DNA of 64,000 nt from an uncultured Pelagibacteraceae bacterium (GTDB taxonomy: Bacteria; Pseudomonadota; Alphaproteobacteria; Pelagibacterales; Pelagibacteraceae), in contig CACMXJ010000001.1 of the NCBI GenBank assembly GCA_902617625.1, positions 77,001-141,000 of the forward strand, read 5' to 3'. This document shows, in pieces, positions 58,517-61,843 of this stretch. The notes beneath the pieces are model-generated. The model worked only from the letters and a program-made list of their open reading frames with translations, ran no database searches and had not been told where the DNA came from. Position 1 is the first letter of the stretch. Every line of letters starts with the position of its first letter. The position numbers were made by a program, and so were the translations under genes.

Positions 58517-60754
58517 TTAATTTAATTTCAGATCAAATCGATCAGAATTCATAACCTTTACCCATGCAGCTATAAAATCTTTAACAAATTTTTCACTTGA
58601 GTCCTCACAGGCATAAACTTCTGCAAGAGCTCTTAGTTGAGAATTTGAACCAAAAATCAAATCAACTCTAGTTGCTTTCCATTTAGTTTTTTGAGTTTTT
58701 CTATCTCTTCCTACAAATGTTTGTTCTGATTTATCTTCCTCTTTCCATGTAGTATTCATGTCTAATAGATTTACAAAGTAATCGTTAGTAAGAGAACCAG
58801 GCTTATTTGTAAAAACGCCATAATTTGAACCATCATAGTTAGTATTTAAAACTCTCATACCACCTATAAGTGCTGTCATTTCTGGTGCAGTAAGACCCAT
58901 TAGTTGTACTTTATCAAGCAATTTTTCCTCTGCTGATACATTTGAAGTTCCTCCATTCAGATAGTTTCTAAAACCATCTGCCTGAGGCTCAAGAAGACCA
59001 AAAGAATGAATATCAGTCTGATCTTGTCTTGCGTCTCCTCTGCCTGCTGAAAATGGGACATTAACTTTATGACCTGCCTTTTTAGCAGCCATCTCAATAC
59101 CAACACCGCCTGCTAACACAATTAAGTCCGCCATTGATACACTTTTCTTTTTATTATCAAATTGATCTTTGATTTTATTTAAAGCTTTTATCACAACTGA
59201 TAACTTCTTAGGATTATTAACAGTCCAATTTTTTTGCGGCTCTAGCATTATTCTTGCACCATTAGCACCACCTCTTTTATCTGATCCTCTAAAAGTTGAA
59301 GCTGATGCCCATGCAGTAGAAACTAAATCTGAAATTGATATTTTTGATTTAGAAATTTTGTTTTTTAAATCTTTAATATCTTTTGATTTAAGTTTGTACT
59401 TTGGTTTATCAATTGGATCTTGCCAAATTAATTGCTCTTTTGGAACTTCATTACCTAAGTAACAAACTCTTGGACCCATATCTCTGTGAGTTAATTTAAA
59501 CCATGCCCGAGCAAATGCATCGTGAAACTCTTTAGGGTTTTGATGAAAATGCTTTGTAATTGGTCCATAACTTGGATCAACTTTCATTGATATATCTGTT
59601 GTTTGCATCATTGGTGGATGAAGCACGCCTTTTTGGTGCGCATCAGGAACCATTTTAATTTTTTGACCATTTTTCTTTGGAGTCCACTGATGAGCTCCCG
59701 CCGGACTTTTTGTTAGTTCCCAATCATGACCATATAAGCAATCTAAATAACCCATATCCCACTTAGTAGGATTTTGAGTCCAAGCACCCTCGATACCACT
59801 GCTTATAGTGTCGACACCTTTTCCAGATTTATATCCACTGTTCCATCCAGTTGATTGATCTTGAAGTTTTGAAGCTTCCGGATCTGGACCTTTGTATGAC
59901 TCTGATGCTGCTCCATGAGATTTACCAAATGTATGACCACCAGCCACTAAAGCTGCTGTCTCATAATCGTTCATAGCCATTCTTCCAAATGTCTCTCTAA
60001 TATCGTGTGCTGCTAGTAATGGATCTGGATTTGCGTCTGGACCTTGTGGATTCACATAAATCAAACCCATGTGAGAAGCACCTAACGGCTGCTCTAAATC
60101 TCTTTTTCCACTGTATCGCTCCACACCTAACATTTCTTTTTCTGAACCCCAATAAATATCATCCTCTGGTTCCCAGATATCAGTTCTACCTGCACCAAAA
60201 CCAAAAGTTTTGAACCCCATAGAGTCTAATGCAACGTTTCCAACTAATATAAATAAATCTGCCCATGAAATCTTTTTTCCATACTTTTTTTTGATTGGCC
60301 ATAACAGTAATCTAGCTTTATCTAAATTCACGTTATCCGGCCATGAATTGAGCGGAGCAAATCTTTGATTACCTGTACCTGCGCCACCTCTACCATCACC
60401 TGTCCTATAAGTTCCTGCAGCGTGCCAAGCCAATCGTATGAATAGAGGACCATAATGACCATAGTCTGCAGGCCACCATTCTTGTGAGTCTGTCATTAAT
60501 TTTTTTAAATCTTTTTTTAGCGCTTTATAATTAAGTTTTTTAAATTCTTTTGCGTAATTAAATTTTTTATCCATAGGGTTGGATAAATCAGAATGCTGAC
60601 TAAGAATTTTTAGATTTAAACTATTTGGCCAGAAATCTCTTACTGTTTGACCTCTCCCTGCAGAAAACTTTGCAGGTGTGCCTGCTCCTGTAAAAGGACA
60701 TTTGCTTAACTCATTAGCTTTAAAAGATTTATTTTTAAAATTTTCAGTACTCAT
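58517..60754 (-). CDS. katG: Catalase-peroxidase
   Basis: [73 protein letters not shown]; two-domain length 745 aa. Confidence 0.97.
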
Positions 60755-60789
60755 TTACTCCCCATGATTTAAGTTGATTATGAAATCAG

Positions 60790-60806
60790 TTTATAATGGT
60801 TCTAAA
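60790..60806. promoter_or_regulatory. Irr-box (ICE)-like site upstream of katG
   Basis: TTTATAA-tgg-TTCTAAA; 13 of 14 positions match TTTAGAA-N3-TTCTAAA; 36 nt before the katG start codon. Confidence 0.55.
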
Positions 60807-60849
60807 CAACTGTCAATTGGTTAATAATGACGCTCAGTAAATTGACGAA

Positions 60850-61248
60850 CTAATCTTCAAGTTTGACCAGAACCTCAATGGATTTGATTTTCTTCCCATC
60901 AATTTTTCTTTTTATATTTATAGGTCCTACATCAGAGTTTTCTAAATCAATTAATTTACCATCTTTCAAATTATAAAAATGATGATGATTTGTAGTATTT
61001 GTGTCAAAATAAGTTTGGTTTGAATTTACAGGGATTTGTTTTAAATACCCTTTTTTTTCAAAAGCATGTACTGTGTTATAGATTGTTGCTAAGGATATTT
61101 TACTATCTATTTTATCTTTAATCTTTTTCTCTAATTCATTTATTGTAAAATGAAAGGTCCTTTCAGTATTAAACAAAACTTCGCATATTTGAAGTCTTTG
61201 TTTAGTAGGTCTTAATCCAGAATTTCTTAATTTATCTATATATTTCAC
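60850..61248 (-). CDS. irr: Fur-family regulator, probably Irr-like
   Basis: LRPTKQRLQICEVLF, ISLATIYNTVHAFEKKGYLKQI, TTNHHHFYNLKDGKLIDLE (Irr-like HHH); adjacent to fabA-fabB-fabI. Confidence 0.82.
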   Translation of the reverse strand: MKYIDKLRNSGLRPTKQRLQICEVLFNTERTFHFTINELEKKIKDKIDSKISLATIYNTVHAFEKKGYLKQIPVNSNQTYFDTNTTNHHHFYNLKDGKLIDLENSDVGPINIKRKIDGKKIKSIEVLVKLED

Positions 61249-61266
61249 TATTTAAGCAAATTGTTA

Positions 61267-61283
61267 GTTAAAATTATTCTAAA
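61267..61283. promoter_or_regulatory. Irr-box (ICE)-like site between irr and fabA
   Basis: GTTAAAA-tta-TTCTAAA; 12 of 14 positions match TTTAGAA-N3-TTCTAAA. Confidence 0.4.
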
Positions 61284-61342
61284 CAAGTATTATAATTATA
61301 TTATATAGTTACAAAATCAAGTAAATAAGAGTATTCAATTTT

Positions 61343-61843
61343 ATGAAAAAAAACTCTTACTCATATGACGAACTAATAAATTGTGGTGAAGGGAAACTAT
61401 TTGGTCCTGGTAATGCTAAATTACCTCTTCCACCAATGCTTATGTTTGATAGAATTACAGAAATTAATGATGACAAAGGAGCTTTTAAAAAGGGTTTATT
61501 AAAAGCTGAGCTAGATATTAAAAATGATCTTTGGTTTTTTAATTGTCATTTTAAGGAAGATCCTGTTATGCCAGGATGTTTAGGATTAGATGCTATGTGG
61601 CAATTAGTTGGGTTTTATCTAGGCTGGATAGGAAATCCTGGAAAAGGAAGGGCATTAGGAGTTGGAACGGTAAAGTTCACAGGTGAAGTATTACAAAACG
61701 TTAAACTGGTAACGTATGAAATTGATATGAAAAAAATTATGTCTCCAGGTGGAACAACTGTTGGCCTAGCTAATGGAGTGGTATTGGCTGATGGAAAAAA
61801 AATTTATTCAGCAGATAGTTTAAAAGTAGGATTATTTAAATAA
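61343..61843 (+). CDS. fabA: 3-hydroxydecanoyl-ACP dehydratase/isomerase
   Basis: [45 protein letters not shown]. Confidence 0.96.

Follow-up and report, generated by a model that had tools for sequence, protein, structure and literature searches.

A putative Irr-box variant shared by irr and an exchangeable peroxidase gene in SAR11 bacteria

In SAR11, an orthologue of the alphaproteobacterial regulator Irr likely binds a variant of the Irr box (ICE) upstream of both its own gene and the exchangeable peroxidase gene that adjoins it, repressing the two until released by haem or peroxide. We reached this reading from the window, i.e. the whole 64-kb stretch of DNA that was analysed, which belongs to a SAR11 genome of 1.03 Mb in 27 contigs, and from its relatives in the Pelagibacteraceae. 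The minus strand of the window carries irr, katG and an Asp/Arg-hydroxylase-like ORF (58493-57897) in this order, and the plus strand carries fabA-fabB-fabI from 61343 (Table 1). An earlier note on this DNA, which took the ICE consensus as TTTAGAA-N3-TTCTAAA, had pointed to one site before katG and one before irr and proposed that Irr controls both genes, possibly touching fabA; control of irr and katG is supported, on sequence grounds, by conserved boxes, by the grouping of the regulator with Irr and by irr-fabA synteny. The Asp/Arg beta-hydroxylase-like ORF (minus strand) adjoins katG in near relatives wherever the locus extends that far, and is also found behind katG in some distant relatives.

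Table 1. Annotated and predicted features around irr and katG (positions are those of the window)
Feature	Position	Strand	Remarks
irr, Fur-superfamily regulator, Irr group	60850..61248	-	132 aa, GTG start; supported by ORF, HMM, tree and fabA synteny
katG, catalase-peroxidase	58517..60754	-	745 aa; TIGR00198 1123 bits, above cut-off; directly behind irr in all near relatives
fabA, divergent neighbour	61343..61843	+	TIGR01749 261 bits; followed by fabB and fabI
Irr-box variant, katG promoter	60790..60806	.	minus strand TTTAGAACCATTATAAA; clade motif exact; exact in 94/94 near relatives
Irr-box variant, between fabA and irr	61267..61283	.	minus strand TTTAGAATAATTTTAAC; clade motif exact
Predicted katG -35, TTGACA	60811..60816	-	invariant or nearly so in 90 relatives
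Predicted katG -10, TAAACT, 17-nt spacer	60788..60793	-	overlapped by the box
Possible fabA promoter, TTAAAA-17-TATAAT	61268..61296	+	-35 within the box; weak

Identity of the regulator

The profile scores of the window regulator are highest for IrrA (125 bits) and Irr (114 bits), as compared to 58 bits for the best PerR model. The NCBIfam equivalog cut-offs are annotation thresholds that the protein does not reach (124.8 of 150 bits for IrrA, NF045678; 114.3 of 170 bits for Irr, NF045677), so we call it an Irr orthologue and not a member of these equivalogs; the best PerR model gives 58 of 200 bits, and the tree also speaks against PerR. The tree was built from 30 class-wide Irr sequences, six Irr loci from named organisms, E. 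coli Fur, SAR11 Fur, a Mur and two PerR (for two of these outgroups the names Mur and PerR are presumed). The window regulator falls with Irr, apart from Fur, Mur and PerR, with support of 94.5 (aLRT) and 95 (UFBoot) for the split between Irr and the outgroups, of which the Mur, PerR and second Fur are partial sequences. Zur is absent from the tree, since neither the Zur-like locus L145 nor E. coli Zur matched the window Irr in phmmer. In gene order, irr is divergent from fabA, a synteny common to the irr genes of S. meliloti, Ruegeria and Rhodobacter. The Irr identity assumed in the earlier note is thus borne out against Fur and PerR (Zur not being in the tree) by HMM, by tree and by the irr-fabA synteny of Rhizobiales and Rhodobacterales, and these measures make it the orthologue in SAR11 of the alphaproteobacterial Irr.

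The HxH haem-binding motif is conserved in the window regulator (TTNHHHFY). The protein contains no CxxC, its sole cysteine being in QICEV, and no N-terminal GCP-type haem regulatory motif as found in Bradyrhizobium-type Irr. All five PerR regulatory ligands (H37, D85, H91, H93 and D104) align with identical residues in the window regulator; they are not diagnostic, since they are mostly common to the Irr sequences inspected.

Conservation of the box

Both sites read by the earlier note were found as described, TTTATAA-tgg-TTCTAAA on the katG side with 13 and GTTAAAA-tta-TTCTAAA on the irr side with 12 of 14 consensus positions; the distances to the start codons are one base shorter than the 36 and 19 nt given there, i.e. 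35 nt to the ATG of katG (60754, minus strand) and 18 nt to the GTG of irr (61248, minus strand). Allowing up to three mismatches, the ICE consensus has 49 matches in the window and 39 +/- 6.4 in shuffled sequences, which is no clear excess. The katG site is the only match with one mismatch in the window, and the irr-side site is unremarkable in AT-rich DNA by mismatch count alone. The clade motif TTTAGAANNNTTNTAA has two exact matches in the window, namely the katG and irr sites (0.34 expected; two reached in 6 of 100 shuffles), and as this motif was refined on related loci after both sites were known, independent weight rests on the relatives and not on the window count. The whole genome contains three exact matches, including these two. 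The third (C1:36982) was rejected as a target and treated as chance, because it falls within an ORF for cytochrome c and genome G046 has the identical 16-mer within its homologous ORF.

Among near relatives (80 named Pelagibacteraceae and 30 loci of the genus, with irr identity of at least 79%), all loci share the fabA / irr - katG arrangement. When 90 non-identical intergenic regions were aligned, TTTAGAAyCATTATAAA was near-invariant at katG and TTTAGAAtAATTwTAA at irr; the irr-side box is exact in 84 of 94 near relatives, and 92 have it with at most one mismatch. We then counted boxes in 205 non-redundant loci including distant members of the genus, another genus (g8) and the sister family (f2); these loci are related and do not represent 205 independent events. 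The box TTTAGAAnnnTTnTAA between irr and the next gene is exact in 188 loci, and 204 have it with no more than one mismatch; the corresponding numbers from dinucleotide shuffles are about 0.2 and 3.5. The box between fabA and irr is exact in 165 of the 205 loci; it has been lost from some distant genomes that carry katG, and no f2 locus has it. By these counts the better conserved putative target is the gene behind irr, rather than irr itself. Random matching, which the earlier note had raised against the sites, does not account for them once conservation across about 200 related loci is counted.

The SAR11 box is an asymmetric ICE variant, TTTAGAAT-N-ATTATAAA, and the sister family retains the canonical TTTAGAATGATTCTAAA. 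No ICE with up to three mismatches was found near irr in the S. meliloti, Ruegeria and Rhodobacter loci, so that an autoregulatory box at irr is not general. Two f2 loci (L229:1501-1516 and L230:1501-1516) have an exact copy of the variant away from irr, between a 1-Cys peroxiredoxin gene and a divergent gene of the metallo-beta-lactamase fold, a possible further target.

We note two other conserved elements. One, TACTTGATTT, is strongly conserved in the fabA-irr intergenic region across most of the genus (e.g. L148). The other, AGCGTCATTATTAACCAATTGACA (60811-60834, minus strand), spans the katG -35 and the bases upstream of it and hardly varies among 90 relatives; the likeness to a degenerate Irr box is confined to its right half, and the AGCGTC in it may be the site of another regulator.

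For a class-wide view, we scanned 400 bp upstream of katG in 30 loci (one from a SAR11 genus without irr). ICE with at most two mismatches is found in nine of them, as compared to 0.1 in shuffles, and all nine are in genomes with Irr. In the five class-wide genomes that lack an Irr match, every site has at least four mismatches, a contrast too small for significance alone. No box was found upstream of katG in G210, a SAR11 genome that has katG and lacks irr. Outside SAR11, locus L363 (G362), one of the nine, has irr directly upstream of katG with a near-canonical ICE, and locus L369 (G295) has another Fur-family gene directly before katG.

Operator position and exchange of the enzyme behind irr

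Relative to TTGAC, the boxes take two fixed positions: in the first, the box ends 3 nt before TTGAC (45/45 rubrerythrin promoters of the genus and 8/8 of f2), and in the second, it starts 10-12 nt after the first base of TTGAC (at 10 in 93 of 94 near katG promoters). The window katG promoter has only the promoter-overlapping operator in intact form, the upstream one being degenerate. The intact one lies between TTGACA and TAAACT, in their 17-nt spacer, and also overlaps the -10 and an alternative -10 (TATAAA, 60790-60795, spacer 15), a position that would fit repression by occlusion. The irr box covers the -35 of the possible fabA promoter, a weak prediction, around which promoter-like matches are as numerous as expected by chance. 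An effect of Irr on fabA, as suggested by the earlier note, stays a possibility: the box lies over this predicted -35, but f2 has no box there.

The gene next to irr varies. In the 201 genomes of the genus, katG is found in 97 and rubrerythrin in 61, and none contains both (29 expected; Fisher 1e-23, a value that ignores kinship, with many of the genomes being incomplete). In the 40 irr loci without katG that we examined, irr is followed by rubrerythrin (37) or peroxiredoxin (3; L165, L172 and L186), and a box is found at the promoter of each version, be it katG, rubrerythrin or peroxiredoxin. Judged by gene content and promoter sequence, the gene behind irr is an exchangeable peroxide-scavenging enzyme under a constant operator. 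The irr-rubrerythrin pair is probably the older state, since f2 has it in the same place with ICE-type boxes before rubrerythrin, perfect and canonical in four loci. In the KatG tree, the sequences from the window genus fall into a single clade and those of g8 into a distant one, so katG entered the slot behind irr at least twice. One f2 genome (G202, locus L299) has an irr-katG pair without fabA as a neighbour, and both its Irr and its KatG nest in the window genus in the trees, reflecting either transfer of the pair or a misbinned contig.

Proposed mechanism, alternatives and known systems

We infer that SAR11 Irr binds the asymmetric box before its own gene and before the gene behind irr. 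Because the katG promoter, with TTGACA as its -35, has the box across its spacer and -10, and because the box of irr is placed between the start of irr and that of the divergent fabA, Irr should repress both irr and katG, which it would do by covering the promoters and blocking RNA polymerase; it would be released by haem binding or by oxidation with peroxide. Irr is known to bind ICE in the absence of haem and to repress or activate according to position (PMC7762939), and Irr of B. japonicum is destroyed by haem-dependent oxidation at the histidine that matches His37 of PerR (PMC4700492).

The same dependence on position (PMC7762939) leaves some room for the reading, less probable in our view though to be taken seriously, that Irr is an activator for the rubrerythrin version at least, acting from the operator immediately before the -35, with the sign differing between promoters. 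All 45 rubrerythrin promoters of the genus have their operator 3 nt before TTGAC, and in Ca. P. ubique, rubrerythrin mRNA was up 1.57-fold under iron limitation and irr followed stationary phase, not iron (PMC2864753). If the rubrerythrin of this strain is taken as the gene behind irr, the rise argues against a simple low-iron repressor; activation from the upstream operator would explain it, and so would a peroxide signal. Against activation stands the window katG promoter, with its degenerate upstream operator and its intact promoter-overlapping one.

It is unlikely that the sites are generic boxes of the Fur superfamily, read mainly by SAR11 Fur/Mur or a third Fur-family protein and close to irr incidentally. 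The genome does encode two Fur-family proteins besides Irr, and the right half of the box, ATTATAA, resembles a PerR/Fur half-site; however, the box accompanies irr, as its ICE form lies right behind irr in f2 (perfect in four loci), the irr-less G210 has no box at katG, and, class-wide, katG sites with at most two mismatches occur exclusively in genomes with Irr. Fortuitous matching in AT-rich DNA, or conservation of the -10 alone, to which the near-chance number of matches with up to three mismatches and the overlap of the right half with the -10 might point, can be dismissed given the conservation across the 205 related loci, as TTTAGAA is near-invariant within a promoter spacer where the promoter alone requires no sequence and promoters of rubrerythrin and peroxiredoxin also carry the box, there ahead of the -35.

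Repression of irr and the adjacent gene by Irr is thus the reading we prefer. A bolder version, which we put forward tentatively, is that SAR11 Irr has evolved into a dedicated peroxide sensor of the PerR kind whose regulon is near-minimal (itself and one peroxidase), and that the locus may act as a socket in which katG, rubrerythrin and peroxiredoxin are exchanged while operator and regulator stay constant. Peroxide removal has a central part in the dependencies among organisms of the surface ocean, and a single slot, predicted to be under Irr control, is occupied by a haem enzyme (katG) in some SAR11 and by a non-haem enzyme (rubrerythrin or peroxiredoxin) in others. Such an exchangeable slot would give differences in peroxide defence and iron demand a genetic basis that is concrete and can be tested.

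Irr, ICE and SAR11 katG are already known. A patchy distribution has been reported for katG of offshore Pelagibacteraceae, which is the same gene, in a passage that does not mention its place behind irr, the box or the exchange with rubrerythrin (PMC12636525). In the literature we searched, with the main Irr regulon paper (Rodionov 2006) outside it, we found no description of the coupling of irr to a peroxidase, of the variant box or of an exchange of enzymes under a single operator.

As compared to the Irr systems with ICE or Irr boxes in Bradyrhizobium, Rhizobium, Brucella and Rhodobacter, the SAR11 system is alike in regulator group, fabA neighbour, TTTAGAA half-site and the canonical ICE of the sister family, but differs in its asymmetric box, in having one exact putative target besides irr, in lacking the N-terminal haem regulatory motif and in that the regulator adjoins its putative peroxidase target. 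PerR with an adjacent catalase and the mycobacterial furA-katG pair also place a Fur-superfamily gene beside that of a peroxide-removing enzyme, as in the SAR11 locus. The five regulatory ligands of PerR align with the SAR11 regulator, which nevertheless groups with Irr, has no CxxC and scores far lower with PerR models. In R. sphaeroides, Irr binds the promoter of the peroxidase gene ccpA and not that of the catalase gene katE (PMC3413700); the target there is likewise a peroxidase gene but, unlike the putative one in SAR11, is not adjacent to irr. The SAR11 locus would extend Irr from the control of iron and haem towards the control of katG across Alphaproteobacteria.
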